From positions 1 through 64,000 of the forward strand of contig NZ_JAKZMM010000003.1 of assembly GCF_022809355.1 (NCBI RefSeq): a stretch of DNA of 64,000 nt, read 5' to 3'. The notes beneath the pieces are model-generated. The model ran no database searches, was not told the DNA's origin, and worked only from the letters and a program-made list of their open reading frames with translations. The position numbers and the translations under genes are program-made. Source of the DNA: Parabacteroides faecalis (GTDB lineage Bacteria; Bacteroidota; Bacteroidia; Bacteroidales; Tannerellaceae). This document shows positions 14,851-60,140 of this stretch, in pieces; position 1 is the stretch's first letter, and each line of letters opens with the position of its first letter.

Positions 14851-17571
14851 TTATCCTTCAATAGCAGCTTGAGCCGCAGCCAAACGAGCGATAGGTACGC
14901 GGAACGGAGAACAAGAAACGTAGTCTAATCCTACTTTATGGCAGAACTTCACAGATGAAGGTTCACCACCATGTTCACCACAAATACCGCATTTCAGTTC
15001 CGGACGTACTGAACGACCTTTTTCTACTGCCATCTGAACCAACTGACCTACACCATTCTGGTCTAATACCTGGAACGGATCGACTTTCAGGATCTTCTTT
15101 TCCAAGTAAACAGGTAAGAAGGAAGCGATGTCGTCGCGAGAATAACCGAATGTCATCTGAGTCAAGTCGTTTGTTCCGAATGAGAAGTATTCAGCACGAG
15201 AAGCGATACGGTTGGCAGTCAGAGCTGCACGCGGAATCTCAATCATTGTACCTACTTTGAATGGGATTTCAATACCTTCTTTTTCGAACAATGCAGCTGC
15301 TGTTGCGCGGATTACTTTTTCCTGTGCCTCGAATTCATACAAGATACCAGTCAATGGAACCATGATTTCCGGATGAGGATCGTAACCTTCTTTCTTCAAT
15401 TCAATAGCTGCTCCCAGAATTGCCTCAGTCTGCATTTCCGTAATTTCCGGATAAGTATTACCCAGACGGCAACCACGGTGACCTAACATCGGGTTGTGTT
15501 CGCATAAGTTTTCTACACGCTGACGAATGTATTCTACGGTTACACCCATTGCCTTTGCCATTTCTTCCTGACCTTTCTGATCGTGAGGAACGAATTCATG
15601 CAAAGGAGGATCGAGCAGACGTACATTCACCGGACAACCATCCATGGCTTTGAAGATACCTTTGAAATCAGCTTTCTGGTAAGGTAATAATTTAGCCAAA
15701 GCTTTACGACGTCCTTCTACATCCGGAGCCAAGATCATTTCACGCATGGCAACGATCTTCTGATTGTCGAAGAACATGTGCTCTGTACGACACAAACCGA
15801 TACCAACGGCACCAAAGCTGCGAGCTACTTCTGCATCATGCGGCGTATCAGCGTTGGTACGTACTTTCAGACGAGTATATTTATCACACAAGTTCATTAA
15901 CTTAGCGAAATCTCCTGAAACTTCAGCTGCTTTTGTAGGAACTTCACCTTGATAAACTTCTCCGGTACTACCATTCAAAGAGATGAAATCACCTTCTTTC
16001 AGCAATACACCATCAATTTCTACGGTACGTGCTTTATAATCTACATTGATGGCACCAGCACCAGATACACAACATTTACCCATACCGCGGGCAACAACAG
16101 CAGCGTGAGAAGTCATACCTCCGCGAGCTGTCAAAATACCTTCTGCAACGGTCATACCAGCCAAGTCTTCCGGAGAAGTTTCGATACGGACTAATACGAC
16201 ACGGTGACCATCGGCACGCCATTTTGCTGCATCTTCTGCAAAGAATACAATCTGACCGCAAGCTGCACCCGGAGATGCCGGTAAACCGCGAGTCAATACT
16301 TTAGCCTGACGCAAAGCTTCTTTATCAAATACCGGATGAAGCAATTCGTCCAGTTTGTTTGGTTCGCAACGCAGAACAGCCGTCTTTTCGTCGATCAAAC
16401 CTTGTTCCAGCATTTCCATTGCAATCCGAACCATGGCTGCACCAGTACGTTTACCATTACGAGTCTGCAAGAACCACAACTTACCTTCCTGAACTGTAAA
16501 TTCCATATCTTGCATATCATGGTAATGGTTTTCAAGCTTCGTCTGGAGTTCATCCAATTCTTTATAGATAGCCGGCATCGCTTCTTCCATAGACGGATAT
16601 TTGCTGGCACGTACTTCTTCTGAAATACCTTGTAATTTTGCCCAACGCTGAGAACCGATCTTAGTAATCTGTTGCGGAGTACGAATACCTGCTACAACAT
16701 CTTCTCCTTGTGCATTGATCAAATATTCACCATTGAACAAGTCTTCGCCGGTAGCAGCATCACGAGAGAAGCAAACACCTGTAGCCGAAGTATCGCCCAT
16801 GTTTCCAAATACCATGGCCTGAACGTTAACAGCTGTTCCCCATTCAGCAGGAATACCTTCCATTTTACGGTAAAGAATAGCACGTTCGTTCATCCAAGAG
16901 TCAAATACGGCACAGATAGCACCCCACAACTGTTCGTAAGCGTTGTTTGGGAAATCTTTACCTGTCTGCGCTTTTACAGCCTCTTTAAAGCGAACAACCA
17001 ATTCTTTCAGGTCGGCAACTTCCAGTTCATTGTCTAAGCGAACACCTTTATTCTTCTTAACATCTTCGATGATTGCTTCAAACGGATCAATATCTTCTTT
17101 GTTGGTCGGTTTCATACCCAATACAACGTCACCGTACATTTGTACGAAACGGCGATATGAATCCCACGCAAAACGTTCGTTTCCTGTTTTACGGGCTAAT
17201 CCGGCAACAACTTCGTCGTTCAAACCTAAGTTAAGGATAGTATCCATCATTCCCGGCATAGAAGCACGAGCTCCTGAACGGACAGAAACCAATAAAGGAT
17301 TCTCTACGTCGCCGAATTTTGATTTCATCAATTCTTCTACGCCTTTAATAGATTTTTCTACGTCGTCTTTCAATAACTCAACAACAGCGTCTTTCCCTTT
17401 TTCGAAGTATTCATTACAAACTTCAGTTGTAATTGTAAAACCGGGAGGAACAGGAACGCCGATCAAGTTCATTTCGGCAAGGTTTGCACCTTTACCACCT
17501 AATAGGTTTCTCATGTCTGCTTTTCCTTCAGCGTGACCATTACCGAAGGTATAGACTCTTTTTTTCTCCAT
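14851..17571 (-). CDS. ppdK: Pyruvate, phosphate dikinase
   Basis: A 906-residue cytoplasmic enzyme that interconverts pyruvate, ATP and phosphate with PEP, AMP and diphosphate, used in Bacteroidales in glycolysis/gluconeogenesis. It shows the ATP-grasp N-terminal domain (KGANLAEMNLIGVPVPPGFT), the swivelling phosphohistidine domain with GGMTSHAAVVARGMGKCCV (catalytic His), and the C-terminal PEP/pyruvate barrel ending in KCGICGEHGGEPSSV with the active-site Cys. Length and motifs are complete. It has its own terminator and a -7 box about 55 bases upstream, so it is probably a single-gene unit. Confidence 0.97.
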   Translation of the reverse strand: MEKKRVYTFGNGHAEGKADMRNLLGGKGANLAEMNLIGVPVPPGFTITTEVCNEYFEKGKDAVVELLKDDVEKSIKGVEELMKSKFGDVENPLLVSVRSGARASMPGMMDTILNLGLNDEVVAGLARKTGNERFAWDSYRRFVQMYGDVVLGMKPTNKEDIDPFEAIIEDVKKNKGVRLDNELEVADLKELVVRFKEAVKAQTGKDFPNNAYEQLWGAICAVFDSWMNERAILYRKMEGIPAEWGTAVNVQAMVFGNMGDTSATGVCFSRDAATGEDLFNGEYLINAQGEDVVAGIRTPQQITKIGSQRWAKLQGISEEVRASKYPSMEEAMPAIYKELDELQTKLENHYHDMQDMEFTVQEGKLWFLQTRNGKRTGAAMVRIAMEMLEQGLIDEKTAVLRCEPNKLDELLHPVFDKEALRQAKVLTRGLPASPGAACGQIVFFAEDAAKWRADGHRVVLVRIETSPEDLAGMTVAEGILTARGGMTSHAAVVARGMGKCCVSGAGAINVDYKARTVEIDGVLLKEGDFISLNGSTGEVYQGEVPTKAAEVSGDFAKLMNLCDKYTRLKVRTNADTPHDAEVARSFGAVGIGLCRTEHMFFDNQKIVAMREMILAPDVEGRRKALAKLLPYQKADFKGIFKAMDGCPVNVRLLDPPLHEFVPHDQKGQEEMAKAMGVTVEYIRQRVENLCEHNPMLGHRGCRLGNTYPEITEMQTEAILGAAIELKKEGYDPHPEIMVPLTGILYEFEAQEKVIRATAAALFEKEGIEIPFKVGTMIEIPRAALTANRIASRAEYFSFGTNDLTQMTFGYSRDDIASFLPVYLEKKILKVDPFQVLDQNGVGQLVQMAVEKGRSVRPELKCGICGEHGGEPSSVKFCHKVGLDYVSCSPFRVPIARLAAAQAAIEG

Positions 17572-17625
17572 AATATAATTAGTTTTAACTTAGATGTTAG
17601 TTTTGTTTCTCATCTTAAACTCCTG

Positions 17626-17633
17626 CAAATATA
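17626..17633 (-). promoter_or_regulatory. -7 promoter box of ppdK
   Basis: The - strand reads TATATTTGC, a TAnnTTTG match 55 bases before the ppdK start codon. No clear -33 TTTG is present. Confidence 0.5.
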
Positions 17634-17750
17634 TGGTTTTATATATTTTTCGACCTGTTTTGGGTTATAGTTTTTTATATGTTTTTAAACCATAGTATAG
17701 TTTGATTCGTTTTTATTCCTTATATTTGTGTGCGGAAATTTGATGACTGC

Positions 17751-18614
17751 CTATTTCTTCCTTGTGCAAACTTCTTTTAATTGCTTTCCTAATTGTTGTG
17801 CGCAAGCATATCCTTCTTCATATAATGCATGTAATTTGGAGATATTTCTTTCTGTTCGGGTAACTTGTAAAGGCTTTTGTGGCCGGATAACAAGGGCTTT
17901 TCCTTCAGCTTCCAGAGAATCAATATAATCCAGTACATGGTTGTAGTTTTTATAACGCATACGCAGTCGTTCCTGTATGGCTGGATATTGATGATAAATA
18001 AAAGAAGGTAGATAAAACTCTTTATCAGCTTTCCGGTATCCTTTGTTGCGGGTCAGGATTATGACATTCTGTTTAAAGCCTTCGTCTATGGCTCGTTGGA
18101 TAGGAATGGCATCGCAGACACCTCCGTCTACCATTGGTATATGGTCAACATACGAGATTGGGCACATCACCGGCAAAGAACAGGATGCTTTACAGGCATC
18201 AATAGTCCGTTTGAAATCTTGTCTTTCTTCGATATACTCGGCTTTACCAGTGAGGCAGTTACTGGTAACCATCACGAAACGACCCGGATATGCTTTGTAT
18301 GCCTCAAAATCGAATGGATAATATTTGTCTGGATATTCATAGAACAGGAAATTCAGGTCAATGTATCCGTTCCCTTTCAGCAAGTGTTTTATACCGATGT
18401 AATTATGTTTTTGGAGTAGTTCTATATTGCTGAAATAGGACCGTCCACGTTGTCGGGAAATATAAGAAATACCATTGCTGGCGCCTGCTGATACACCAAT
18501 CACATATGGAAACCAAAGTTGATTGTCCATGAGGTAATCTAATACACCGACGGTGAAGATTCCACGCATTCCTCCACCTTCCAAGACTAATCCTGTTGCT
18601 ATGTCTGTTCTCAT
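17751..18614 (-). CDS. Patatin-like phospholipase family protein
   Basis: A 287-residue patatin-fold lipase. The oxyanion motif is LEGGGMRG (about 12-19), the nucleophile elbow is GVSAG (Ser about 42), and the Asp of the catalytic dyad is in MVDGGVCDAIP, so all three patatin signatures are intact. No signal peptide is visible, so a cytoplasmic acyl hydrolase acting on membrane lipids is the simplest reading; the substrate cannot be told. It is followed 26 bases before its ATG by the stop of no gene on that side, and the RlpA-type gene (18641-19102) lies just upstream in the same direction, so the two may share a transcript. Confidence 0.88.
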   Translation of the reverse strand: MRTDIATGLVLEGGGMRGIFTVGVLDYLMDNQLWFPYVIGVSAGASNGISYISRQRGRSYFSNIELLQKHNYIGIKHLLKGNGYIDLNFLFYEYPDKYYPFDFEAYKAYPGRFVMVTSNCLTGKAEYIEERQDFKRTIDACKASCSLPVMCPISYVDHIPMVDGGVCDAIPIQRAIDEGFKQNVIILTRNKGYRKADKEFYLPSFIYHQYPAIQERLRMRYKNYNHVLDYIDSLEAEGKALVIRPQKPLQVTRTERNISKLHALYEEGYACAQQLGKQLKEVCTRKK

Positions 18615-18640
18615 ATATATACCTTATATTATATATCTAT

Positions 18641-19102
18641 TTATTCTTTTGGATAGATAAACGGAGGTGTTTCTTCTCGCTGCTCTACCGGTAAAAAGGG
18701 AATAGTTGGGCGCATCAGATCCAGATATCGAAGGTCAATCGGACCGGGAACAACTTCGATCCGTACGCGTGTAACACCCGCTTTGATAAAGTCGAGGACT
18801 TCAGCTGCTGATTTCGAAACATCGATGATACGGCTTTTCCGTCGAGGGCCACGATCCATAATGGAGACGATGACGCTTTTCATGTTTTTCAGATTTGTTA
18901 CACGGACAAAAGTGCCGAAAGGTAATGTACGATGCGCCGCTACAAAATCATCGTTGTCGTGAACGTATCCGCTCGCTGCTTTTCGGCCATGAAATCGGTT
19001 GTGATAATAAGAAGCAAGACCTTCTTCCTGTCCATAAGAAAAATCTATATTTCCTATTATGAACAAGCCGAAAAGTAATGAGCGGATCACGAACTGAATC
19101 AT
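18641..19102 (-). CDS. RlpA-like septal ring/peptidoglycan-associated protein
   Basis: A 153-residue exported protein with a signal peptide (about 1-24) and one double-psi beta-barrel of the RlpA type: GLASYYHNRFHGRKAASG, AHRTLPFGTFVRVTNLKN and IMDRGPRRKSRIIDVSKSAAE. In other bacteria RlpA is a lytic transglycosylase acting on naked glycan strands at the septum. Here the SPOR domain is missing and the protein is short, so septal targeting is doubtful. It lies 15 bases after the TlpA-like gene and 26 bases before the patatin gene, all in one direction. Confidence 0.85.
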   Translation of the reverse strand: MIQFVIRSLLFGLFIIGNIDFSYGQEEGLASYYHNRFHGRKAASGYVHDNDDFVAAHRTLPFGTFVRVTNLKNMKSVIVSIMDRGPRRKSRIIDVSKSAAEVLDFIKAGVTRVRIEVVPGPIDLRYLDLMRPTIPFLPVEQREETPPFIYPKE

Positions 19103-19117
19103 TTGTCAGAGTTTCTA

Positions 19118-20107
19118 TTATTTCAGTATTTCTTCTAGCTTCTCTTGTAAAGCATCCTCTCGCAAGTCTTTAGCTATGATAATACCGTTCGGATCGATCA
19201 GGAAGTTGGCAGGAATACCACGTACAGCATATAAAGCAGGAACTTCCGAATCCCAGTATTTTAAGTCGGATACATGAGTCCATGTCAGCTGATCGTCTTG
19301 AATGCCTTTCATCCAACGTGCTTTATCTTTATCTAGTGAAACTCCCAGGATTGTAAAATTCTTATCTTTATACTTCTGATAAGCAGCAACTACATTGGGA
19401 TTTTCTTTCCGGCAAGGCGGACACCAGGATGCCCAAAAGTCGAGTAAAACATATTTCCCTTTGAAGTCAGCTAATGAGACATTGACTCCTGCTGTATCTG
19501 GAAGTGTAAAGTTGGGTGCCGGTTTTCCGATCTGTACGCTTTCAAGAGTCAGAATGATTTGATCCAAATCTTTAACGTAAGGACAAGAGGACAGAGTAGG
19601 GGATAATTTGGCACGAGTCGCTTTTAACTGTTCAAGTGGTAACTGATAAGTGAAGTATCGATACAGGAAAAAGGCTGCTACCGGAGAAGCTGGATTTTCA
19701 CTGACCAGCTTATCAATGTCATAACCTTCTTCTGTTACATCCTCTTGATTGTCGAGAAATAGCTGGTTAAGAGGAGAGTTCTCTATCTTTTCTATTTCAC
19801 CGTCTTCCGTATCCAGTGTAAGTTTTATGTTTTGGTTGTCTAAAAAGAATTGGGATGGATAACTCATATCTTCTGTCGCCAATCCATACAGTAAAGGCTG
19901 TTCAACTTTCCCTTGGAATGTAAATTTCCCGTTTACAATCTCAGCTGTATCAACATCAAAGAACATTTTGTTTCGAAATGACTTTAAATAGATTTTTCCT
20001 TCTTGTACACCTTCTACTTCACCTTCAATTTTGTATCCTTCCGGAGTAGATTGACAACTTACAAATAAAGCAGAAGCTAATAATGCTGCTAAACTGAATT
20101 TTTTCAT
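19118..20107 (-). CDS. TlpA-family thiol-disulfide reductase lipoprotein with DUF4369 domain
   Basis: A 329-residue lipoprotein (lipobox ALFVSC, Cys about 18) with an N-terminal beta-sandwich of the DUF4369 type (GEVEGVQEGKIYLKSFRNK) and a C-terminal AhpC/TSA thioredoxin domain (about 190-329) holding the redox motif WASWCPPCRKENP. Proteins of this design are common in Bacteroidales and reduce periplasmic disulfides or cytochrome c-type substrates; the partner is unknown. It is 22 bases after the EFR1 gene and 15 bases before the RlpA gene on the same strand. Confidence 0.9.
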   Translation of the reverse strand: MKKFSLAALLASALFVSCQSTPEGYKIEGEVEGVQEGKIYLKSFRNKMFFDVDTAEIVNGKFTFQGKVEQPLLYGLATEDMSYPSQFFLDNQNIKLTLDTEDGEIEKIENSPLNQLFLDNQEDVTEEGYDIDKLVSENPASPVAAFFLYRYFTYQLPLEQLKATRAKLSPTLSSCPYVKDLDQIILTLESVQIGKPAPNFTLPDTAGVNVSLADFKGKYVLLDFWASWCPPCRKENPNVVAAYQKYKDKNFTILGVSLDKDKARWMKGIQDDQLTWTHVSDLKYWDSEVPALYAVRGIPANFLIDPNGIIIAKDLREDALQEKLEEILK

Positions 20108-23236: not shown

Positions 23237-24472
23237 ATGAGCAGAAGCACTTTCAGGGTGTTGTTCTACCTCAAGCGCAACGCGCCGAAAAAGAACGGAA
23301 TGATTCCCGTGATGTGCCGCATCACGGTGAACGGGAAGGTATCACAGTTCAGCAGCAAGCTGGACGTGGAGGAGAAAATGTGGAACGTGGAACTGGGCAA
23401 ACTGACGGGTCGTAGCCTCGTGGCACAGGAGGGCAACCGTATGCTGGACAAGATACGGCTTGGCATCAACAAGGCGTATCAGGAAGTGTGCGACACCGAC
23501 GGATATGTCACGGCTGAGAAGGTGCGCAACGCCTACCTGGGTCTGGGACAGAACCACAAGACCCTGCTTGCCGTGTTCAAGCAGCACAACGAGGACTATG
23601 CCAAACAGGTCGGCAAGATGAAGAGCGAGCGCAGCTACTGGAAATACTGCGTGGTGTACAACCACTTGTCGGAGTTCATCAAGCAACGCTACAAGATGAG
23701 TGACATCGCCCTACGTGAGCTGACACCCGCCTTCATCACCGACTTCGAGCTGTTCCTCCGCACGGAGAAGAACCACTGCACCAACACCGTATGGTCGTAC
23801 ATGATGCCCTTCCGCAGCATCATCTTCACCGCCATCAACAACGGCTGGCTGGCGCGTGACCCCTTTTATGCCTACCACATCACGAAGGAAGAGACCAAGC
23901 GCGGCTTCCTGACCAAGGAAGAGATTACGGCACTCATCAACGGCACGTTCAAGAAGAAAAGCTTTGAGCTTATCAGAGACCTCTTCATCTTCTGCTGCTT
24001 CACGGGACTGAGCTGGCGGGACATGTACAACCTGACGGAGGAGAACCTACAGACCTCCTTCGACGGGCATCTGTGGATAAAGACCAACCGCCAGAAGACA
24101 GGCGTGGAATCGAACATCCGCCTGCTTGACGTTCCCAAGCATATCATTGAGAAGTACAGCGGCATGGCTGAGGGCGGACGGCTGTTGCCCGTCCCCTGCT
24201 ATCCCCATTGCCGATACGGCATTAAGGCCGTCGCCAAGCAATGCGGTATCAACAAGAACGTGACCTGGCACCAGAGCCGTCACTCGTATGCCACCACCAT
24301 CTGCCTCTCCAACGGCGTGCCGATTGAGACCCTGTCGAAGATGATGGGACACACCAGCATCCGCAGCACGCAGATCTATGCGAAGATTACCGCTGAGAAG
24401 GTAAGCAACGACATGGAGCGTCTGTCCAAGCAGATAGAATCCATGGAACAGTTCATTTGTCAGACCATCTAA
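23237..24472 (+). CDS. int: Tyrosine recombinase IntDOT-type integrase
   Basis: A 411-residue tyrosine recombinase that integrates and excises the element. The catalytic set matches IntDOT numbering exactly: Ser259 in FTGLSWRD in place of the usual first Arg, Arg285 and Lys287 in KTNRQKT, His345 and Arg348 in WHQSRHS, His372 in MGHTS and nucleophile Tyr381 in TQIYAKI. The N-terminal arm-binding domain (about 1-100) and SAM-like core-binding domain (about 105-210) are present. The Ser259 replacement is known from IntDOT, which tolerates non-identical crossover regions. orf2 starts 11 bases after its stop. Confidence 0.95.
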   Translation: MSRSTFRVLFYLKRNAPKKNGMIPVMCRITVNGKVSQFSSKLDVEEKMWNVELGKLTGRSLVAQEGNRMLDKIRLGINKAYQEVCDTDGYVTAEKVRNAYLGLGQNHKTLLAVFKQHNEDYAKQVGKMKSERSYWKYCVVYNHLSEFIKQRYKMSDIALRELTPAFITDFELFLRTEKNHCTNTVWSYMMPFRSIIFTAINNGWLARDPFYAYHITKEETKRGFLTKEEITALINGTFKKKSFELIRDLFIFCCFTGLSWRDMYNLTEENLQTSFDGHLWIKTNRQKTGVESNIRLLDVPKHIIEKYSGMAEGGRLLPVPCYPHCRYGIKAVAKQCGINKNVTWHQSRHSYATTICLSNGVPIETLSKMMGHTSIRSTQIYAKITAEKVSNDMERLSKQIESMEQFICQTI

Positions 24473-26503: not shown

Positions 26504-28093
26504 ATGGCAAAGAAAAAAGACGAAAAAGACGTGCTGATAGTCCGTGACGAGAAGACGGGCGAAATCAGCGTGGTGGCCGGACTACAGGCGGACGGCACTC
26601 CCAAGCGCACGCCGGCAAAGATGGAGAACTCCAAGGACTTCCTCCAGTTCGACAAGAACGGTGACGTGCTCGACAACTTCTTCCGCAACTTCTTCCGCCA
26701 GTGCAAGGAACCCAGCCGCTTCGGCTTCTACCGTATAGCGGCAGACCAGGCGGAAAACCTGCTCGGCGTGATGAAGGAGTTGCTGAAAGACCCTGCAGCC
26801 AATGCAGACCTACTCGCACCCCACAAAGTGGACACATCGGCTTACGAAAAGCAGGTGGCGCAGGAACAGAAAGTGCAGGAAGACAAGAAGCAAGAAATGA
26901 ATCAAAATCAAACAAACAATGTAGAACCCCAAAAACAAGAAAACATGCAACAAAAACAGGAAAACGTGCAGCAGAGCGCACAGGAGAACAAGCAGGAAAG
27001 TAAACAACGGCAAGGCTACCAGCCCATTGACGAAAGCCGTATCGACTGGCAGGCACTGGAAAAGAACTGGGGCGTGAAGCGGGATGAACTGGAACAGTCC
27101 GGCGACCTACAGAAGATGCTCAACTACGGCAAGTCCGACCTTGTTCGTGTCACTCCCAACTTCGGCGGCGAGTCGTTCAGCCTCGATGCCCGACTTTCCT
27201 TCCGCAAGGACGATGACGGCAACGTGCGGCTCGTTCCCCATTTCATCCGCAAGGAGCAGAAACTCGACGAGTACAAGGGACACAAGTTCACCCCCGAAGA
27301 GAAGAAGGCACTGAGGGAGACAGGCAATCTCGGCAGAATCGTGGACTTGGTGGACAAGACCACGGGAGAGATAACTCCCTCTTTCATCAGTATCGACCGC
27401 AAGACCAATGAGATTACCGACATGCCTGCCGCACGCATCCGCATTCCCGAACGTATAGGCAAAACGGAGATTACCCCGCAGGAGCGTGAGATGCTCCGTG
27501 CCGGTCTGCCCGTCAAGGACAAGCTCATCGAGCGTAACGATGGCCGCAAGTTTGTCACCACCCTGCAGGTGAACGTGGAACAGCGAGGCGTGGAGTTCGT
27601 ACCCGGCACGGGCAAGTCGCCCCGTACCGTGGAGGAGCAGACCAACAAGGAGAATCCCTCATTCGCACAGGAGGCACCTCAGCAGAAACCCGGCAAGCAA
27701 CGTCGCAACTCGTGGACCAACGAGGACGGCAGCATCCGTCCCATCAGCAAGTGGAAAAACGTACCCTTCACCGAGGAGCAGAAAGCCGACTATGTGGCTG
27801 GCAAGACCATCAAGTTAGAGAACGTACCCGACGACAAGGGTGTGCTCTCCACCATGTACCTCCGTTTCAATCCCGAAAAGGGTCGTCCTTACCGTTACGA
27901 CACCAATCCCGACAACGCCCAGAAGGTGGCTCCGGCAAACGAGAGCCGCACGCAGGTGGCCGTCAACAGTCAGGGCAAGACCAACGAGGCGACTAAGAAT
28001 GTCAACGAGCCGCTGCAGAAGGGACAGACCGCTCCGAAGGACGATACCCAGCAGAAGCAGGAGAAACGCAAGAGCAAAGGCATGAAGGTATGA
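26504..28093 (+). CDS. CTnDOT orf3-like protein, DUF4099/DUF3945 domains
   Basis: A 529-residue hydrophilic protein without signal peptide or membrane segment. It has an N-terminal conserved part (about 1-115), a Gln/Asn-rich low-complexity linker (about 125-170, repeated KQENMQQ units), a middle region of DUF4099 type (WQALEKNWGVKRDELEQ) and repeated DUF3945-type units that share the phrase FTPEEKKALRETG / ITPQEREMLRAG / FTEEQKADYVAG. The unit spacing points to three related repeats. It is the third gene of the excision operon. In CTnDOT orf3 is not needed for excision, and its role is unknown. Confidence 0.8.
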   Translation: MAKKKDEKDVLIVRDEKTGEISVVAGLQADGTPKRTPAKMENSKDFLQFDKNGDVLDNFFRNFFRQCKEPSRFGFYRIAADQAENLLGVMKELLKDPAANADLLAPHKVDTSAYEKQVAQEQKVQEDKKQEMNQNQTNNVEPQKQENMQQKQENVQQSAQENKQESKQRQGYQPIDESRIDWQALEKNWGVKRDELEQSGDLQKMLNYGKSDLVRVTPNFGGESFSLDARLSFRKDDDGNVRLVPHFIRKEQKLDEYKGHKFTPEEKKALRETGNLGRIVDLVDKTTGEITPSFISIDRKTNEITDMPAARIRIPERIGKTEITPQEREMLRAGLPVKDKLIERNDGRKFVTTLQVNVEQRGVEFVPGTGKSPRTVEEQTNKENPSFAQEAPQQKPGKQRRNSWTNEDGSIRPISKWKNVPFTEEQKADYVAGKTIKLENVPDDKGVLSTMYLRFNPEKGRPYRYDTNPDNAQKVAPANESRTQVAVNSQGKTNEATKNVNEPLQKGQTAPKDDTQQKQEKRKSKGMKV

Positions 28094-28099
28094 GCCGGA

Positions 28100-28116
28100 G
28101 TGCCACCACTGAATCC
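28100..28116 (+). promoter_or_regulatory. RteR-complementary motif upstream of exc
   Basis: GTGCCACCACTGAATCC in the orf3-exc spacer is complementary over 17 bases, with one G-U pair, to 30413-30429 of the presumed RteR RNA. It lies about 60 bases before the exc ATG. Confidence 0.4.
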
Positions 28117-28177
28117 ACCATTATCCCAAATATGAGAACATAAACAATAAGTAAGAACAGAAAAAAAGTAAATCAGT

Positions 28178-30265
28178 ATGAAGACCATTATCGCAGAGAA
28201 GCCCTCCGTGGCACGTGAGATAGCCCGCATCGTGGGCGCGACAAAGAGAGAAGATGGTTATTTCTTAGGCAGCGGTTATGCCGTCACATGGGCCTACGGG
28301 CACCTTGTGCAGCTCACCATGCCCGAAGGCTACGGCATCCACGGCTTCGTCCGTGAGCATCTGCCCATCCTGCCCGACACCTTCACCCTGCAACCACGAC
28401 ACACCAAGACAGAGAAGGGCTACAAGCCCGAACCCAGCGTAGTCACGCAGATACGCATCGTGGGCAGGCTCTTCAACGAGAGCGAGCAGATAATCGTGGC
28501 CACCGATGCCGGACGCGAGGGCGAACTCATCTTCCGCTATCTCTACAGCTACCTGGACTGCCGCACGCCTTTCGTGCGCCTGTGGATCAGCTCCCTCACC
28601 GACAAGGCTATCCGAGAGGGACTGCGCCACCTCGAAGCGGGCAACCGTTACGACCGCCTTTACCATGCCGCCAAGGCACGCAGCGAAGCCGACTGGCTGG
28701 TAGGCATCAACGCTACGCAGGCCATGAGCATCGCCGCAGGCAGAGGCACCTACTCCCTTGGGCGTGTTCAGACACCCACGCTGGCGATGGTGTGCGCCCG
28801 CTACTGGGAGAACAGACGCTTCACCCCCGAAGCCTTCTGGCAGGTGCATCTGTCCACAGACGGCACAGGAGAACAGACGGTGAAGTTCTCTTCCGTGGAG
28901 AAATGGAAGGAGAAATCCCCGGCGGAGCACATATATAATAAGGTAAAGGCGCAGCCCTCCCTGCTCGTTACAAAGGTGGAGTGCAAGGAGAAGGTGGAAG
29001 ACACGCCGCTGCTCTACGACCTCACCACCCTGCAGAATGAAGCCAACGCCAAGCACGGCTTCACAGCGGAGAAGACGCTGGAGATAGCGCAGAAGCTCTA
29101 CGAAAAGAAGCTCATCACCTATCCCCGTACCGGCAGCCGCTACATCCCCGAAGATGTCTTTGATGAGATCCCCAAGTTGCTCGCCTTCTTGGGTGGCTAT
29201 CCCGAATGGATAGGCAAGGTGCCCCGCAAGGACAGACTGACCCGCCGCAGCGTGGACGGCAGCAAGGTGACCGACCATCACGCCCTGCTCGTCACGGGCG
29301 AGAAGCCCCTCTTCCTATCCAAGGAGGACAACACCGTGTATCAGATGATTGCCGGGCGCATGGTGGAGGCCTTCTCCGACAAATGCGTCAAGGAACTCAC
29401 CACCGTTACCGCCCTCAGCGGTGAGGCGGAGTTTGCCGCCAAGGGCTGCGTGATACGTCAAACGGGGTGGCGTGCCGTACTGGGCGAGGACAGCGAGGAG
29501 CAGATACTGCCCGGATGGAAAAGCGGAGAAACCCTTTCCGTATGCGGCGTAAGCCTCACAGAGGGCAAGACCAAACCCAAGCCCCTGCATACTGAGGCTA
29601 CCCTGCTGTCGGCTATGGAGACAGCAGGTAAGGACGTGGAGGATGAGGAGGTCCGTCAAGCCATGAAGGAGTGCGGCATCGGTACTCCCGCCACCCGTGC
29701 CGCCATCATCGAGACTCTCTTTGCCCGCGGCTACGTGCAACGCTGCAAGAAGTCGCTTGTGCCTACCGAGAAAGGGCTGGCCCTCTATTCCGTGGTAAAG
29801 GAAATGCGCATCGCTGATGCCGCCCTCACGGGAGAATGGGAACGGGAGCTGGCACGCATCGAACGTGGGGAGAAGGAAGTCTCCGCCTTCCATGGTGAGA
29901 TAGAGCGTTACACCACGGAAATCACCGCGGAGCTGCTCTCTTGCGACAAAATTTTCGGCCACAAGCCCTCCGGCTGCACCTGTCCCAAGTGTGGCAAGGG
30001 ACAGATGCAGTTCTACGGCAAGGTTGTGCGTTGCGACAACCCCGAATGCGGTCTGCCCGTGTTCCGTCAGAAAGCCAACCGCGACCTGAAGGACGAGGAG
30101 ATCAGGGAACTGCTCACCACCGGGAAGACTTCCCTGTTGAAAGGCTTCAAGAGCAAGCAGGGCAAGAGTTTCGATGCCGTCATTGCCTTTGATGCCGACT
30201 ATAATACGGTATTTGTCTTCCCCGAAGTGAAAAACAAGGGAAAATATTCCCAGAAGAGGAAATAA
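28178..30265 (+). CDS. exc: Exc, type IA DNA topoisomerase (TopB/topoisomerase III)
   Basis: A 695-residue topoisomerase III. It has the Toprim domain (MKTIIAEKPSVAREIA at the start; ATDAGREGELIFR), the GRVQTPTLAMV motif, the active-site Tyr about 315 in LITYPRTGSRYIPE, and a C-terminal Cys4 zinc finger (CTCPKCGKGQMQFYGK ... CDNPECG). Exc of CTnDOT is required for excision in vivo, although its topoisomerase activity is reported as not essential for that role, and it also activates tra. It is the last gene of the xis2c operon and is followed by the rteR region. Confidence 0.93.
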   Translation: MKTIIAEKPSVAREIARIVGATKREDGYFLGSGYAVTWAYGHLVQLTMPEGYGIHGFVREHLPILPDTFTLQPRHTKTEKGYKPEPSVVTQIRIVGRLFNESEQIIVATDAGREGELIFRYLYSYLDCRTPFVRLWISSLTDKAIREGLRHLEAGNRYDRLYHAAKARSEADWLVGINATQAMSIAAGRGTYSLGRVQTPTLAMVCARYWENRRFTPEAFWQVHLSTDGTGEQTVKFSSVEKWKEKSPAEHIYNKVKAQPSLLVTKVECKEKVEDTPLLYDLTTLQNEANAKHGFTAEKTLEIAQKLYEKKLITYPRTGSRYIPEDVFDEIPKLLAFLGGYPEWIGKVPRKDRLTRRSVDGSKVTDHHALLVTGEKPLFLSKEDNTVYQMIAGRMVEAFSDKCVKELTTVTALSGEAEFAAKGCVIRQTGWRAVLGEDSEEQILPGWKSGETLSVCGVSLTEGKTKPKPLHTEATLLSAMETAGKDVEDEEVRQAMKECGIGTPATRAAIIETLFARGYVQRCKKSLVPTEKGLALYSVVKEMRIADAALTGEWERELARIERGEKEVSAFHGEIERYTTEITAELLSCDKIFGHKPSGCTCPKCGKGQMQFYGKVVRCDNPECGLPVFRQKANRDLKDEEIRELLTTGKTSLLKGFKSKQGKSFDAVIAFDADYNTVFVFPEVKNKGKYSQKRK

Positions 30266-30315
30266 ATGAGTACCTTCGCCACTGAATCAAAGTCTAATCG
30301 TTGGTTTTAAACCTT

Positions 30316-30378
30316 CGTTTTCTCGCCATGGCAATGATTAAGCGAGCTTATCATTGCTCATCTGGCTTAACGAAAACG
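30316..30378 (+). repeat. Nested inverted repeat downstream of exc
   Basis: Outer arms CGTTTTC (30316-30322) and GAAAACG (30372-30378) enclose inner arms GCAATGAT (30331-30338) and ATCATTGC (30350-30357). An even wider pairing joins CCACTGAATCAAAGT (30279-30293) with 30408-30423. Together they can fold the exc 3' region into a large hairpin. Confidence 0.6.
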
Positions 30379-30425
30379 TTCTTGTTCTTCTAAGACTTGA
30401 CTGATTTACTTTGGATTTAGTGGTG

Positions 30426-30458
30426 GCACTTCGGGAGGGATACCCGGAGTGCTTTTTT
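30426..30458 (+). terminator. Rho-independent terminator at the end of the rteR region
   Basis: GCACTTCGGG pairs with CCCGGAGTGC (one G-U pair) across AGGGATA and is followed by six T. Confidence 0.9.
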
Positions 30459-30481: not shown

Positions 30482-30500
30482 CACCACTATAATCCCAAAA
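30482..30500 (+). promoter_or_regulatory. RteR-complementary motif before the DUF1896 gene
   Basis: CACCACTATAATCCCAAAA lies 5 bases before the ATG at 30506. It is a weaker relative of the motif seen before traN and mobA (two differences and one extra base). Confidence 0.3.
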
Positions 30501-30505
30501 TAGAC

Positions 30506-30952
30506 ATGAACAAGAACGAAAAGAAACAGAAAGAACTGTCGTACTACCACCTCTATCTGCAAAAGCATCTTCAAGAGAACCGTTTTGAACAGGCGGATGA
30601 CACCGCCTTCATCGAGACCCGTGCCGAACTTGCCGCGTCTGCCTACGAGCAGGCACGCCGTGGGGGCTATCCCATAGAGGGAGCACAGGAACTGGTGATG
30701 CAGACCCTGCTGAAGGGACTGCACCATTCCAGATACGCCATCCTGCGTGAGGTTATCGCCAACGAGTTTGCCTACGAGATTCCCAAAGCGCAGCAGGAAG
30801 CCTTTACTAGAAAGCTGCTGCCATTAGTGGATAATGTATTCTCCATCTATGATCTATCCGACGACCTCTTCGCCCAGTCGTTGGACTATGACCTGCTGTA
30901 CAGCGAACTGACGGGAGCTGTCGTACTCTATCTGGCCGAGTATGGCGTTTAA
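30506..30952 (+). CDS. DUF1896 family protein
   Basis: A 148-residue hydrophilic, mostly helical protein of a family found in Bacteroidales mobile elements ([42 protein letters not shown]). No catalytic motif is seen and the function is unknown. The ATG at 30506 is preferred to one 57 bases earlier, which would start inside the terminator. Its last 11 bases overlap the start of the methylase-helicase gene, so the two are probably translated together. Confidence 0.8.
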
Positions 30953-37391: not shown

Positions 37392-39365
37392 GTGCGTTTC
37401 GACAATGCATCTACTGTAGTATATTATTGCTTAATCCAAATGAATATTATAAATTTAGGAATTCTTGCTCACATTGATGCAGGAAAAACTTCCGTAACCG
37501 AGAATCTGCTGTTTGCCAGTGGAGCAACGGAAAAGTGCGGCCGTGTGGATAATGGTGACACCATAACGGACTCTATGGATATAGAGAAACGTAGAGGAAT
37601 TACTGTCCGGGCTTCTACGACATCTATTATCTGGAATGGAGTGAAATGCAATATCATTGACACTCCGGGACACATGGATTTTATTGCGGAAGTGGAGCGG
37701 ACATTCAAAATGCTTGATGGAGCAGTCCTCATCTTATCCGCAAAGGAAGGCATACAAGCGCAGACAAAGTTGCTGTTCAGTACTTTACAAAAGCTGCAAA
37801 TCCCGACAATTATATTTATCAATAAGATTGACCGTGCCGGTGTGAATTTGGAGCGTTTGTATATGGATATAAAAACAAATCTGTCGCAAGATGTCCTGTT
37901 TATGCAAACTGTTGTCGATGGATCGGTTTATCCGGTTTGCTCCCAAACATATATAAAGGAAGAATACAAAGAATTTGTATGCAACCATGACGACGATATA
38001 TTAGAACGATATTTGGCGGATAGCGAAATTTCACCGGCTGATTATTGGAATACGATAATCGCTCTTGTGGCAAAAGCCAAAGTCTATCCGGTGCTACATG
38101 GATCAGCAATGTTCAATATCGGTATCAATGAGTTGTTGGACGCCATTTCTTCTTTTATACTTCCTCCGGCATCAGTCTCAAACAGACTTTCAGCTTATCT
38201 CTATAAGATAGAGCATGACCCCAAAGGGCATAAAAGAAGTTTTCTTAAAATAATTGACGGAAGTCTGAGACTTCGAGACGTTGTAAGAATCAACGATTCG
38301 GAAAAATTCATCAAGATTAAAAATCTAAAGACTATTTATCAGGGCAGAGAGATAAATGTTGATGAAGTGGGTGCCAATGATATCGCGATTGTAGAAGATA
38401 TAGAAGATTTTCGAATCGGAGATTATTTAGGTGCTAAACCTTGTTTGATTCAAGGATTATCTCATCAGCATCCCGCTCTCAAATCCTCCGTCCGGCCAAA
38501 TAAGCCCGAAGAGAGAAGCAAGGTGATATCCGCTCTGAATACATTGTGGATTGAAGACCCGTCTTTGTCCTTTTCCATAAACTCATATAGTGATGAATTG
38601 GAAATCTCGTTATATGGTTTGACCCAAAAGGAAATCATACAGACATTGCTGGAAGAACGATTTTCCGTAAAGGTCCATTTTGATGAGATCAAGACTATCT
38701 ACAAAGAACGACCTATAAAAAAGGTCAATAAGATTATTCAGATCGAAGTACCACCCAACCCTTACTGGGCCACAATAGGGCTGACGCTTGAACCCTTGCC
38801 GTTAGGGACAGGGTTGCAAATCGAAAGTGACATCTCCTATGGTTATCTGAACCATTCTTTTCAAAATGCCGTTTTTGAAGGGATTCGTATGTCTTGCCAA
38901 TCTGGTTTACATGGATGGGAAGTGACAGATCTGAAAGTAACTTTTACTCAAGCCGAGTATTATAGCCCGGTAAGTACACCTGCTGATTTCAGACAGCTGA
39001 CCCCTTATGTCTTCAGGCTGGCTTTGCAACAGTCAGGTGTGGACATTCTCGAACCGATGCTCTGTTTTGAGTTGCAGATACCCCAAGTAGCGAGTTCCAA
39101 AGCTATTACAGATTTGCAAAAACTGATGTCTGAGATTGAAGACATCAGTTGTAATAATGAGTGGTGTCATATTAAAGGGAAAGTTCCATTAAATACAAGT
39201 AAAGACTATGCCTCAGAAGTAAGTTCGTACACTAAGGGCTTAGGCATTTTTATGGTTAAGCCATGTGGGTATCAAATAACAAAAGACGGTTATTCTGATA
39301 ATATCCGCATGAACGAAAAAGATAAACTTTTATTCATGTTCCAAAAATCAATGTCATTAAAATAA
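37392..39365 (+). CDS. tetQ: Tetracycline resistance ribosomal protection protein TetQ
   Basis: A 657-residue EF-G-like GTPase that removes tetracycline from the ribosome. The GTPase motifs are intact: G1 [10 protein letters not shown]3 DTPGH, G4 NKID. The sequence closely matches the known TetQ of Bacteroides over its whole length. The GTG start at 37392 is preceded by GAGGAGG at good distance; an internal ATG at 37440 (MNIINLG) would give a 641-residue form and fits the start of other ribosomal protection proteins. rteA starts within the stop codon (ATG at 39365), so the genes are coupled. The gene is much poorer in G+C than the surrounding ICE. Confidence 0.97.
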
Positions 39366-41692
39366 TGGAGCGGTCAGGAAATTTCTATAAGGCAATACGG
39401 TTGGGATATATACTTATCTCCATTCTTATCGGATGTATGGCATATAATAGCCTCTATGAATGGCAGGAGATAGAAGCATTAGAACTTGGCAATAAAAAAA
39501 TAGACGAGCTCCGAAAAGAAATAAACAATATCAATATTCAAATGATAGAGTTTTCTCTGCTTGGGGAAACCATATTGGAATGGGATGCCAATGATTTGGA
39601 GAACTACCACTCCCAACGTATGGTGATGGACAGCATATTGTGCGGTTTTAAGAAGACCTACCCGTCTGAACGGATAGACAGTCTGCGCTTTCTACTGGAA
39701 GATAAAGAAGTGCAGATGCGGAAAATCGTGCAAGTTCTTGAAAAGCAAGATTCCATTAACAAGAAGATTGCCGGACAGGTTCCGGTCATTGCAAAAAAGA
39801 GTGCGCAGGAGCAGCCTGTCAAGCCAAAACGCAAGGGATTTCTTGGCATTTTCGGCAAAAAAGAAAAGCCGAAGCAGACAACAGCCACGACTATGCTCTA
39901 TACGCTCCACCGCGATGCAATAGCACAACAGCGTACACAAAGCCGCCGCCTGTCGGAACACGCCGACAGCCTTGCCGCCCGCAACGGAGAATTGAATTAC
40001 CGGTTACAAGAACTTATCTCCCATATGGACACAAAAGTATATCAAGACCTGCAAAATCGTGAGGCCGAGATAATGACCATGCGGGAGAACTCGTATATGC
40101 TTGTCGGGAGCATGACCGCCATTGCCTTGGTATTGCTGCTCATATCCTACATCATAATACACCGCAATAACAGAAGAATCAACCGTTATGAAAAGGAAAC
40201 GGAAGAACTGATAGGGCGATTGCAACAGTCTGTCCGTGCAAATGAGGAACTGATAGCTTCCCGTAAGAAAGCCGTGCATACCATTACCCATGAGCTGCGC
40301 ACACCATTGACAGCGATAAACGGCTACGCAGAGCTTATACATGAAAACGATGCAGAATGTGCCGGTCGTTATTCAGTGAATATGTTACAGGCATCCCGGC
40401 ATATGACAACCATGCTGAACTCGTTGCTTGAATTTTTCAGGCTGGAAAACGGGAAGGAGCAACCAAAAGTATCTCCGTTTCGCCTGCAAAGCGTGTCCGA
40501 GATGCTTAATGCGGAATTCCTTCCACAAGCAGAGAAGAAAGACCTTAAACTGACAATCGAATGTGATTCGGACGTTATTTTGGCAGGTGATAAAGAACGT
40601 GTCATTCATATCGGCAACAACCTGTTGTCCAATGCTGTCAAGTTTACACAATCCGGAAGCGTATCATTCCGTCTTTGCCATACAGAAGGCTACCTTGTGT
40701 TAAGCGTGGAAGACACCGGCAGCGGGATGAACAAAGAAGAGCAACAACGGATATTCGATCCATTTGAACGCCTGTCCAATGCAGCCACACAAGACGGATT
40801 CGGTCTGGGTTTAAGTATCGTGAAACGGATTGTTGATATGCTTGGCGGAACAATACGGGTTGAAAGCGAGAAAGGGAAAGGTAGCCGTTTTACAGTACGA
40901 ATACCTATGTTGGTTGCGGATGCCATTGCCGAAAAGCCGGAATTACGGTCAGAACAACGCCTTGAAAAGACGTATTCGGTTGTCGCACTTGATGACAACG
41001 AGATAGTGCTGGGCATGGTAAAAGAGATGTATGCCAGTGTCGGAGTGCATTGCGACACCTTCAGCAATGTCGGTGATATGATGGAGGCGTTGCGCACACG
41101 GCATTATGATTTAGCAATCGTGGATTTGAAGATGCCGGAGATGAACGGCTTTGAGGTATTGGAACTGATGCGTTCATCAAGCGTCGGCAACTCAAAAGAG
41201 ATACCCGTCATTGTGGCAACTGCATCCGGCAGTTGCGAAGCTGAGGAACTGACAGCGCAAGGTTTTACAGCCTGCCTGTTCAAACCATTCTCACTGTCAG
41301 AACTGATTGAGGCATCGGAAAAATGCCTTTCAGCCAACACCAGCAAAGAGGAAATACCTGATCTGGCCTCCCTTCTTGCTTACGGTGACAAGGCGGCAAT
41401 GCTTGACCGCCTGATAACCGAAACTGAGAAGGACGTGCAGGACGTAAGGAATGCCGGAGCAAGAGGCGACCGCATGGCTTTGGGCGAATGGATACACCGC
41501 CTGCGCAGCTCTTGGGCTGTAATTCATGCTGATAAACCGCTGTGGGAACTATACGAATTGTTGCATCGGGAAAATGAATGTTCGGAAGCGGAGTTGCAAC
41601 GTGCGGTATCATCCATATTGGAGAAAGGTAATATGATCATCAATGTCGCCAAAAACGAAAGGAGGAAGCTCAATGAAAATCTATGTGATTGA
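39365..41692 (+). CDS. rteA: RteA hybrid sensor histidine kinase
   Basis: A 775-residue hybrid sensor kinase of the CTnDOT transfer cascade. Order: membrane segment (about 14-30), periplasmic coiled-coil sensor part with a Lys-rich stretch (about 150-172), second membrane segment (about 245-265), HisKA with phospho-acceptor His309 (THELRTP), HATPase (NNLLSNAVKF; DTGSGMNKEE; GFGLGLSIVK), receiver domain (VVALDDNE; phospho-Asp in IVDLKMPE), and a C-terminal HPt-like helix with His about 711 (IHRLRSSW). The reading frame is intact. It overlaps tetQ at the start and rteB by 20 bases at the end. Its partner RteB is broken in this copy. Confidence 0.95.
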   Translation: MERSGNFYKAIRLGYILISILIGCMAYNSLYEWQEIEALELGNKKIDELRKEINNINIQMIEFSLLGETILEWDANDLENYHSQRMVMDSILCGFKKTYPSERIDSLRFLLEDKEVQMRKIVQVLEKQDSINKKIAGQVPVIAKKSAQEQPVKPKRKGFLGIFGKKEKPKQTTATTMLYTLHRDAIAQQRTQSRRLSEHADSLAARNGELNYRLQELISHMDTKVYQDLQNREAEIMTMRENSYMLVGSMTAIALVLLLISYIIIHRNNRRINRYEKETEELIGRLQQSVRANEELIASRKKAVHTITHELRTPLTAINGYAELIHENDAECAGRYSVNMLQASRHMTTMLNSLLEFFRLENGKEQPKVSPFRLQSVSEMLNAEFLPQAEKKDLKLTIECDSDVILAGDKERVIHIGNNLLSNAVKFTQSGSVSFRLCHTEGYLVLSVEDTGSGMNKEEQQRIFDPFERLSNAATQDGFGLGLSIVKRIVDMLGGTIRVESEKGKGSRFTVRIPMLVADAIAEKPELRSEQRLEKTYSVVALDDNEIVLGMVKEMYASVGVHCDTFSNVGDMMEALRTRHYDLAIVDLKMPEMNGFEVLELMRSSSVGNSKEIPVIVATASGSCEAEELTAQGFTACLFKPFSLSELIEASEKCLSANTSKEEIPDLASLLAYGDKAAMLDRLITETEKDVQDVRNAGARGDRMALGEWIHRLRSSWAVIHADKPLWELYELLHRENECSEAELQRAVSSILEKGNMIINVAKNERRKLNENLCD

Positions 41693-42685
41693 GGACAATA
41701 CCGTCTATAACGAATATGTCTGCAACCTTCTGAAAAAAGGCGGCTTCAAGACCGAGCAGGCATACCATCTCAATACAGCCAAGAAGTTGTTGACCAAGAT
41801 TGGGGATGATGACATCGTGCTTGCCGACCTGCGTTTACCCGAGGGTGACAGTATAGAACTGTTAAGATGGATGCGCAAAAATGAAATGCGTCATCCGTTC
41901 ATCGTAATGACAAACTACGGTGAAGTCGGTTCGGCAGTAGAGAGTATGAAACTCGGGTCAAAAGATTATATACAGAAACCTCTGCTGGAAGACAAACTGC
42001 TACCGCTAATACCAATAAAACCGGGTATTTCCAAGAAGCCGAAGGCGGAACGTTATTCCTTGACGAAGTCGGTAACCTGACGCCGGAGATGCAGCAGATG
42101 TTGCTCCGTGCCATACAGGAACGACGTTACCGACCGATAGGGGCCAAAGAGGACAAGGCAGCCAACGTGCGTATAGTTGCTGCAACCAACGAGGACTTGC
42201 ATAAAGCCGTTGCCGAGAAACGCTTCAGACCGGATTTGCTATATCGTTTGCAGGAATATGTGATAACAGTACCTCCTCTGCGCGATTGTCCGGAGGACAT
42301 AATCCCGTTGGCTGAGTTTTTCCGCGAAATAGCCAATCAGGAACTGGAACGGAACATACAAGGCTTCAGCACATCCGCCTGTAAAACCTTGCTCGCCTAT
42401 CCGTGGCCGGGCAATGTACGTGAGCTGAAACAGAAGATTCTGTCAGCCGTACTGCACACAGAAGGCGATATCATAACGGAGAATAGTCTGGAACTTGACA
42501 ATGAACAAACAGCTTCATCCATCGGTTTTACGCTAAAGAGTGATGAAGAAGAGAAAGACCGCATACTGCGGGCTCTGAAACAAACTGACGGGAACAAAAA
42601 GCTGGCGGCGATACTATTGGGCATTGGCAGGACAACGCTGTACAACAAAATCGAAGAATACGGAATTGACGACGCAAAAGAATGA
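41673..42685 (+). pseudogene. rteB: rteB, internally deleted and frameshifted response regulator
   Basis: RteB is an NtrC-type response regulator: receiver, AAA+ sigma-54 activator and Fis-type HTH. Here the receiver is complete (MKIYVIEDN, phospho-Asp in LADLRLPEGDS, KDYIQKP), but right after it, at about 41997-42004, the sequence jumps to the end of the GAFTGA loop region and changes frame. Translation ends at 42080 after 135 codons. The other frame continues GYFQEAEGGTLFLDEVGNL (Walker B) through AAA+ motifs to the HTH (NKKLAAILLGIGRTTLYNKI). Walker A and the GAFTGA loop are missing, about 100-110 codons. A second ATG (42089) could give a 198-residue fragment with the HTH. An assembly or culture artefact cannot be excluded. 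Confidence 0.88.
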
Positions 42686-42933: not shown

Positions 42934-43557
42934 ATGAACTACCTCATATTGGCGGAAACAGAATTTTTCGCCATGATTAACGAAGCCGACAGCGGCTGTC
43001 TGAAGACCGCATACGGTGGTTTCATAAGCTCAGTCATATCGTTATGCCATGAATGTGCTGACCGCAACCAAGCTGCCATTACACTGGCATATACCGAGAA
43101 CGAATTGCAGTATCATAACACGCTGTATACAGCTGCCGGAAAAAGCATGACCGACTTATATGTACGCAAAGCCCTTGCCTTTGTGCGCAAGATGCAGAAG
43201 TTCCTTGCAGCTCCCCAAGTGCCACCACTCACATCCAACATCCATCCCACCGTTATCCCCACAGCAAAAAGCAAAACACAGAAGTCCCTGCAATGGACGG
43301 GCAACACCCTCGACCTTGTGGAGCTGGTTTACGGGCTGAGCGAGATGGGCTGTATAGACAACGGCGAGACTCCCTTGAAGGTGCTCGCCCCTGCCCTCTA
43401 CGAGTTCTTCGGACTCGACACCAAGGAGTGTTACCGCTACTACTCCGCCATCAAACTGCGCAAGAATCCCAGCCGCACCTATTTCATCGACAAGATGCAG
43501 AAGAAACTCAATGAGAAGATTCGACGGGATGAGGAATTGGAGCGGATGAGGCGGTAA
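42934..43557 (+). CDS. rteC: RteC, activator of the excision operon
   Basis: A 207-residue cytoplasmic protein that in CTnDOT binds upstream of xis2c and turns on excision. The N-terminal part (about 1-95) is helical (ILAETEFFAMINEADSG; FVRKMQKFL) and the C-terminal part (about 120-207) holds the DNA-binding winged-helix-like region (WTGNTLDLVELVYGLSEMGCIDNG ... NPSRTYFIDKMQKKLNEKI). The frame is intact, and the reading start is 248 bases after rteB behind the inverted repeats. With rteB broken, its expression must depend on basal or other activation. Confidence 0.9.
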   Translation: MNYLILAETEFFAMINEADSGCLKTAYGGFISSVISLCHECADRNQAAITLAYTENELQYHNTLYTAAGKSMTDLYVRKALAFVRKMQKFLAAPQVPPLTSNIHPTVIPTAKSKTQKSLQWTGNTLDLVELVYGLSEMGCIDNGETPLKVLAPALYEFFGLDTKECYRYYSAIKLRKNPSRTYFIDKMQKKLNEKIRRDEELERMRR

Positions 43558-48957: not shown

Positions 48958-48971
48958 TTGGATTTAGTGGT
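48958..48971 (-). promoter_or_regulatory. RteR-complementary motif in the mobA leader
   Basis: The mobA mRNA reads ACCACTAAATCCAA 3-4 bases before its ATG. This is perfectly complementary to 30411-30424 in the presumed RteR RNA. Pairing would cover the ribosome-binding region. Confidence 0.45.
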
Positions 48972-49075
48972 TTCACGTCAAGACCCCTTTCCCAACTCCA
49001 AGCATCGGTTTTCATCAGGCTTCCCGACTTCGGAGGAAGAGCCCGTCCCCCGCCAGTGGGGCAAGAGCTTTTCGG

Positions 49076-52352: not shown

Positions 52353-52476
52353 CGTATAACCATTGCAACGAAAAAAAGAATGAATAGAAAGTAATGCAAC
52401 AACAAAGCGGCAGAGCGGTACAAGGTACATCCAGACCGCAAACGGACAGCCTAAGTCCGTGGAAACAAAAGGGCGA

Positions 52477-52489
52477 CACCACTATATCC
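52477..52489 (+). promoter_or_regulatory. RteR-complementary motif upstream of traE
   Basis: CACCACTATATCC differs by one base from CACCACTAAATCC. It lies in the 211-base spacer before traE, 75 bases before the ATG. The rest of the spacer shows nothing I can name. Confidence 0.25.
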
Positions 52490-52563
52490 GAATAAAGTAA
52501 ATCATTATCAACCCGCCCGACAAGGACTATCCACCCTTTGAGGGCACAAAATAGAACATCAAT

Positions 52564-60081: not shown

Positions 60082-60121
60082 GAAATATAAAAGATAAAGT
60101 AACAACAATCCAATTTTTATT

Positions 60122-60140
60122 CACCACTAAAATCCAAAGT
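60122..60140 (+). promoter_or_regulatory. RteR-complementary motif in the traN leader
   Basis: CACCACTAAAATCCAAAGT ends 3 bases before the traN ATG. It pairs with 30408-30425 of the presumed RteR RNA with a single bulged base, and pairing can be carried on over the first bases of the start codon with one more bulge. No Shine-Dalgarno sequence is seen here. Confidence 0.5.

Follow-up and report, generated by a model that had tools for sequence, protein, structure and literature searches.

A putative RteR-type antisense RNA encoded after exc and its complementary gene leaders in an integrative and conjugative element of Parabacteroides faecalis

Results

Organization of the locus

The first 64,000 nucleotides of contig NZ_JAKZMM010000003.1 of Parabacteroides faecalis (assembly GCF_022809355.1), referred to here in their entirety as the window, contain a CTnDOT-like integrative and conjugative element (ICE). 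The region directly behind its exc-type topoisomerase gene very probably encodes an RteR-type antisense RNA, which would pair with the leaders of genes of the same ICE (Table 1). The gene is predicted to consist of a promoter at the exc stop codon, a long hairpin, and a terminator hairpin. The antisense seed would be formed by the 3' arm of the first hairpin together with the short GUGG linker behind it; the reverse complement of positions 30404-30429 reads GTGCCACCACTAAATCCAAAGTAAAT. Kinase, regulator and RteC-like genes are also present in the ICE. Labels of the exc, tetQ, rteA/B, mobA and traE kind are partly assigned from gene order and are therefore presumptive.

Table 1 Features of the ICE and of the putative small RNA system in the window
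Feature	Position	Strand	Basis or remark
Integrase gene	23237-24472		
DUF4099/DUF3945 gene	26504-28093		
Candidate target site, exc leader	28098-28118	+	duplex scans; copy at 28104
exc-type topoisomerase gene	28178-30265		
Promoter-like -7 box TACCTTCG	30271-30278	+	sequence; just past exc stop codon, position shared by relatives
Putative RteR-type small RNA gene	30279-30458	+	covariance model R1, E 1.9e-9
5' arm of RNA	30279-30297	+	partly G-U complementary to seed
Palindromic repeat in apical loop	30296-30381	.	not in those RNAs of relatives that were read
Predicted antisense seed	30406-30425	+	3' arm of hairpin 1 plus GTGG linker
Intrinsic terminator hairpin with T run	30426-30458	+	
Candidate target site before DUF1896 gene	30482-30498	+	sequence; leader ranking; imperfect, extra base
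DUF1896 gene	30506-30952		
EF-G-like gene, tetQ kind	37392-39365		
Candidate extra target inside rteC coding sequence	43217-43229	+	80-kb scan
Candidate target site before mobA	48958-48973	-	14 perfect pairs, 3 bases from ATG
mobC-mobB-mobA		-	
tra genes	from 49654 onward		
Candidate target site before traE	52476-52494	+	about 70-87 bases ahead of ATG at 52564
Candidate target site before traN	60121-60140	+	one bulged A, 3 bases from ATG

The start of the RNA is probably at 30279-30285 and its length probably about 173-180 nt, with a palindromic repeat of 85 bases filling the loop; the shorter length corresponds to a start at 30284-30285, where the Rfam model would put it. The initial annotation had proposed an RNA of about 90 nt at 30369-30458. 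That extent is unlikely, because the promoter-like box and the 5' arm lie at 30271-30297 and the repeat enlarges the loop. The annotation had also missed that the 5' arm, directly past the exc stop codon, is itself a further plus-sense copy of the leader motif. In 23 relatives, the box, CCAC, a variable loop, seed and terminator follow each other in the same order, and the length from CCAC to the end is 81-108 bases, compared with 179 in the window; the difference is due to the palindromic stretch. Sequences similar to this stretch (75-90% identical over parts of 30-84 bases) occur elsewhere in genomes G388, G111 and G211, in two of the three at more than one place (loci L003, L010, L012, L019, L020 and L021; such labels are working names), while in the genome of the window itself just one copy passes E 0.001.

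The insert, together with a -7 box that has TTCG where the consensus TAnnTTTG (PMC7366714) has TTTG, and a DUF1896 match (11) that is the lowest of the ICEs with type A seeds, could indicate that the pairing system is real in the relatives and that the copy in the window is decaying, its RNA being weak or silent. This is unlikely, as the seed, 5' arm and terminator are all intact, the 85-base insert is itself a hairpin that lengthens the stem, and TACCTTCG is also found in G059:C16, an RNA without the insert.

Complementary sites in the window

The motif copies in plus sense that the initial annotation had listed before exc, DUF1896, mobA, traE and traN are all present. Plain motif counting was dropped as evidence because it gave no excess (with up to 3 mismatches allowed, 27 matches against 28.3 expected; those standing out are two exact matches, of which one is the seed, and two with one mismatch), and placement and comparison were used instead. 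Among 34 leaders chosen by the author from the ICE part of the window, the best duplexes are those of exc (-36.6), traE (-29.8), traN (-29.4), mobA (-27.0) and DUF1896 (-22.5, a value shared by the gene at 57841). Averaged over the five best leaders, the value is -29.1, compared with -19.9 (standard deviation 1.3) for mononucleotide-shuffled seeds, none of which was as good in 300 trials; random 29-mers from the window equalled it in 3 of 300. The five leaders that the annotation had singled out are the top five of the 34.

An unbiased scan of 80 kb on both strands ranks as the top eight non-self partners exc, rteC, traE, traN, 78787 (+), 11757 (-), mobA and the 5' arm of the RNA. The matches at 78787 and 11757 have no visible link, and the DUF1896 site is not among the top 30 matches listed. 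The placement of the complementary sites exceeds chance. The second-best partner, AAGTGCCACCACT within rteC, resembles stretches which rank high in G166:C1, G292:C1 and G289:C16, and it may be either a target or an effect of codon constraint.

The rteB-like gene of the same ICE (41643-42685) is broken: a response-regulator frame at 41643-42080 is followed by a second frame at 42089-42685, whose start corresponds to position 109 in the profile of the sigma-54 activation domain.

Relatives of the RNA

The covariance model R1 was derived from the RNAs of 18 relatives, the window being left out, and its training set includes four RNAs of seed types C and D (L098, L100, L122 and L164). Of 393 genomes belonging to the order of the window, 24 are matched by R1 at E 0.01. 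For 17 of these E is below 1e-4, and the other seven matches are weak and may be due to chance; several of the matched genomes had contributed sequences to the model. Searches with exc yielded 110 loci, of which 67 were tested with R1 after the removal of near-identical copies, L097, L100, L106-L112, L115 and L165-L192. A match on the exc strand within 0.8 kb of exc is present in 29 of the 67 (E below 1e-4). The named positive loci belong to the Bacteroidales, except L124, which is named to the class Bacteroidia alone. No match at E 1e-4 was found in the Flavobacteriia and Sphingobacteriia loci among the 67, or in some Bacteroidales loci, such as L127, L129, L143, L144 and L147.

All ten RNAs folded from the first C of the CCAC box are predicted to form two hairpins, with z-scores from -5.3 to -8.0. 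In an alignment of 35 distinct sequences fitted to the model, 97.8% of the cells pair, and 51 cells are changed on both sides of the pair, compared with 8.5 in shuffles. Most of these double changes fall in the terminator helix, where they affect 6 of 6 pairs; at the start of helix 1 they affect 1 of 7. The fifth base of the CCAC(T/A) box varies with the seed (28 U-A, 5 A-U and 2 unpaired), which a start of the RNA at +6 would not account for, since the box would then lie outside the transcript.

The Rfam model of rteR (RF04181) has no match in the window at the gathering score. The window RNA scores 26.2 bits, below the cut-off of 72, and because sub-cut-off matches also occur in 8 of 14 control genomes, this score does not support membership. 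The cut-off is passed by L098, L100, L164, L300 and G000:C7, and is not reached by L303 (57.5 bits), L087 (40.5), L119 (39.2) and L103 (34.9). Homology is bridged by R1, which includes the Rfam-passing L098, L100 and L164 and finds the RNA of the window, and by the shared position after exc. The Rfam model begins at the sixth to seventh base of the CCAC box and leaves a nine-base unpaired linker that contains GUGG.

Six genomes (G000, G059, G258, G308, G372 and G388) contain two or three RteR-type RNAs. Their seeds differ within the genome in all six, although the pool is so diverse that chance could give the same result. In the genome of the window, the RNAs are at G000:C3 and G000:C7, the latter being above the Rfam cut-off. 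The ICE of Bacteroides mediterraneensis at L119 contains group II intron RNA domains at 17556-19959, about 5 kb downstream of exc.

Sites in related ICEs

One site threshold was applied to 73 leaders from 21 ICEs, G266 and G289 each being counted as one ICE with exc and traN on different contigs. A site is present in 64 of them: 16 of 21 exc, 14 of 14 DUF1896, 12 of 16 mobA, 15 of 15 traN and 7 of 7 traE leaders, the last count being biased because traE leaders were picked via matches of their own seed and not by gene position. Relatives that keep the RNA therefore mostly keep the motifs as well; their loss was the observation that the initial annotation had set against its own proposal. Of the 29 loci with the RNA, 22 have the motif in the exc leader, as do 2 of the 38 loci lacking the RNA, near-copies included. 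Eight other ICEs were scanned whole, each with its own seed. The leader of a gene (traE, traN, exc or mobA) was the best non-self match in seven, G352 being the exception; non-leader matches of similar strength occur too, for example in G292.

In type C ICEs exc lacks a site. A site with a score of 16-18 of 18 is present instead at the gene directly upstream of exc in all four of these ICEs with enough upstream sequence (L121, L122, L162 and G258:C1a). The exc operon would remain a target, with a change in the gene carrying the site. L119 has a site 144 bases ahead of exc, that of L164 is weak and lies far upstream, and none was found before exc in L124. The sites of mobA, DUF1896 and A-type traN end beside the start codon.

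Another leader-like match, CCACTAAAATCCAAAGTAACATGAG, occurs in L257/L256 and in G292:C1 near 2868694 (minus strand), before an open frame taken as a tra gene; the gene at 56162 of the window has no match of this type.

Joint change of seed and leaders

The complements of the seeds differ strongly among ICEs, being for example CCACTAAATCCAAAGT in type A, CCACTAAAAAATTCAATA in type B, CCACTAAAATTTCAATTA in type C, CCACAAAAATCCTCAATT in type D and CCACAGATTAACTCAAAG in Dysgonomonas. Own and swapped seeds were compared for one ICE per seed type (14 types, 45 leaders, 20,000 permutations), with the row of G059:C3 labelled DUF1896 left out because it belongs to another gene. None of the 20,000 permutations was as good as the true assignment for all 45 leaders. 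By gene, the number of permutations as good was 0 for exc, 1 for DUF1896, 0 for traN, 25 for traE, the leaders of which had been selected by own-seed matches, and 354 for mobA. For the eight most different types the corresponding numbers were 1, 159, 0, 41 and 4757. Seeds with CCACA in place of CCACT occur together with CCACA in the leaders (exc and traN of G059:C3, traN of G372:C4, and exc and DUF1896 of L126).

Five genomes with several such ICEs allow comparisons within one cell: of 55 comparisons made for 33 leaders, 50 show a better fit of the own seed than of a neighbour's seed, 3 a worse fit and 2 a tie. These numbers do not include the siteless leaders (mobA of G059:C3, exc and mobA of G258:C1a, and mobA of G000:C7), the DUF1896 leader of G258:C1b, and G388, which has two RNAs and no leaders. 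Seed and target sites have changed together across related ICEs, weakly so for mobA. Common descent alone would not turn two unrelated places complementary in step.

RNA pairing, DNA site or sponge

Sites within one ICE vary together, as they would for one protein, and a copy comes right after the -7 box of the small RNA gene. The motif could accordingly be a DNA site recognized by a regulator of the ICE, placed at regulated genes and at the small RNA promoter, with the match in the RNA as a by-product. However, among 16 seed types, the differences of the 5' arm from the exact complement of the seed that keep pairing amount to 35, namely 25 A to G and 10 C to T, whereas T to C was found at 0 of 61 and G to A at 0 of 13 positions; non-pairing changes number 16. 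Since the transitions in the 5' arm are all G-U-compatible, pairing of RNA is favoured over a repeated DNA site. Furthermore, the hairpin has compensated pairs (though mostly in the terminator helix), the sites lie inside operons, touch start codons and are on the mRNA strand in every leader examined, and the seed copy is reversed and located immediately ahead of the terminator. A DNA site is thus very improbable.

The resemblance of the 5' arm to the leader motif, with which it varies, would also fit a sponge, in which an RNA-binding protein recognizes the leader motif and the 5' arm serves as a decoy copy. By contrast, where the 5' arm and the seed complement differ, 61 of 64 leaders are nearer to the exact complement of the seed, with two contrary cases and one tie (the exc leader of the window). 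Because of this, the leaders are regarded as partners of the seed and not as copies of a protein site, and the sponge is the least probable of the explanations considered.

Several observations weigh against pairing of the RNA with the leaders of its own ICE. The swap test is weak for mobA and biased for traE. The own seed ranks first for just 19 of 45 leaders, because many seeds are near-identical variants of type A, and for 17 of 28 among the eight most different types; all these counts are of ICEs and not of independent events. Two of the 12 mobA leaders above the threshold pass it barely, and type C ICEs and G059:C3 have no mobA site, so that mobA would be a target in some lineages alone and the case for it is weak. 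G352 has weak sites, and its best matches are not leaders. In G166:C16 the traN site is kept beside a degenerate RNA, which is unexplained. The traE sites and some exc and traN sites are 20-70 bases from the start codon. The seed is fully paired when the RNA is folded from the first C. Finally, changes in seed-leader duplexes that keep G-U pairing (9) show no clear excess over those that break it (12).

Discussion

Specific complementarity, the joint change of seed and sites and a predicted two-hairpin RNA emerge from the comparison, and the promoter, the ends of the RNA, strand displacement and repression are proposed from it. As in trans-acting base-pairing small RNAs, the predicted complementarity extends to several mRNAs near their translation starts and goes beyond chance. 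The seed would pair over about 12-20 bases with the leaders of the exc operon, traE, traN, DUF1896 and, in some lineages, mobA, and the targets would serve excision, the mating pore and the relaxosome. The 5' arm of the RNA would keep the seed closed by partly G-U pairs. Most likely, the GUGG linker nucleates on CCAC in the leader, whose strand, being a nearly exact Watson-Crick complement, is able to displace the G-U-weakened 5' arm. The predicted net gains for an RNA starting at +6 are -29.9 kcal/mol for exc, -17.8 for traN, -16.7 for mobA, -11.4 for DUF1896 and -8.6 for traE; with a start at the first C they are -18.2, -6.1, -6.1, -0.5 and 0.0 kcal/mol, respectively.

Pairing most likely blocks the initiation of translation and lowers the amount of mRNA from that point on; that the RNA represses its targets is suggested by descriptions of RteR. 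Sites before traE and traN lie inside the tra operon, so that repression would be uneven, which would account for discoordinate expression. The initial annotation had proposed pairing at the starts of traN and mobA with feedback on exc. The traN part is supported and the mobA part does not hold generally; the exc operon as a target fits the feedback. To the named targets traN, mobA and exc, traE and the gene upstream of exc in type C ICEs should probably be added.

Both this family of RNAs and this kind of regulation are already known; what is new, as far as limited searches show, is the target set, its joint change, and the presence of several mutually distinct versions per cell. The target set, defined at the level of bases, would link excision, the mating pore and, in some lineages, the relaxosome to one RNA. 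The 14 natural seed types can serve directly as compensatory variants, in a phylum that lacks an obvious Hfq or ProQ homologue (PMC7366714). The own-seed preference in genomes with several ICEs makes the sharing of a cell by ICEs testable. It is possible, though doubtful, that RteR-type RNAs form a diversifying specificity system, in which each Bacteroidales ICE has its own seed and matched leaders, ICEs of the same type cross-silence, and selection drives seed turnover. Co-resident ICEs would then be controlled independently, those with the same seed would silence each other's excision and transfer genes, and the system would be an RNA counterpart of plasmid incompatibility or fertility inhibition.

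RteR of CTnDOT was reportedly described by Waters and Salyers in 2012. It shares with the RNA of the window the location after exc in an ICE and the two hairpins. The window RNA differs from it in its Rfam score, its length, which is predicted to be about twice as large, and its seed type. According to PMC7366714 and PMC9299015, RteR is a repressor of the tra operon and renders its expression discoordinate. An mRNA target of RteR is named in none of the available parts of PMC7366714, PMC9299015, PMC10994844, PMC5418344, PMC12632263 and PMC5729914, and a limited literature search found no publication naming one, although one may be in print.

GibS of Bacteroides thetaiotaomicron acts in trans and pairs at translation initiation regions through long seeds, in a phylum where no obvious Hfq or ProQ homologue is present (PMC7366714). 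Trans-acting pairing near translation starts would be common to GibS and the window RNA. However, GibS is intergenic, has an unstructured 5' seed and acts on metabolic targets, whereas the seed of the window RNA would be a 3' arm beside the terminator, with targets in the same element. FinP of F-like plasmids is a two-hairpin antisense RNA that controls conjugation and has element-specific alleles. It is cis-antisense to one mRNA, that of traJ, and works with FinO. FinP is mentioned in PMC9299015. By contrast with FinP, the RNA of the window would be trans-acting, with four or five leaders as its targets.
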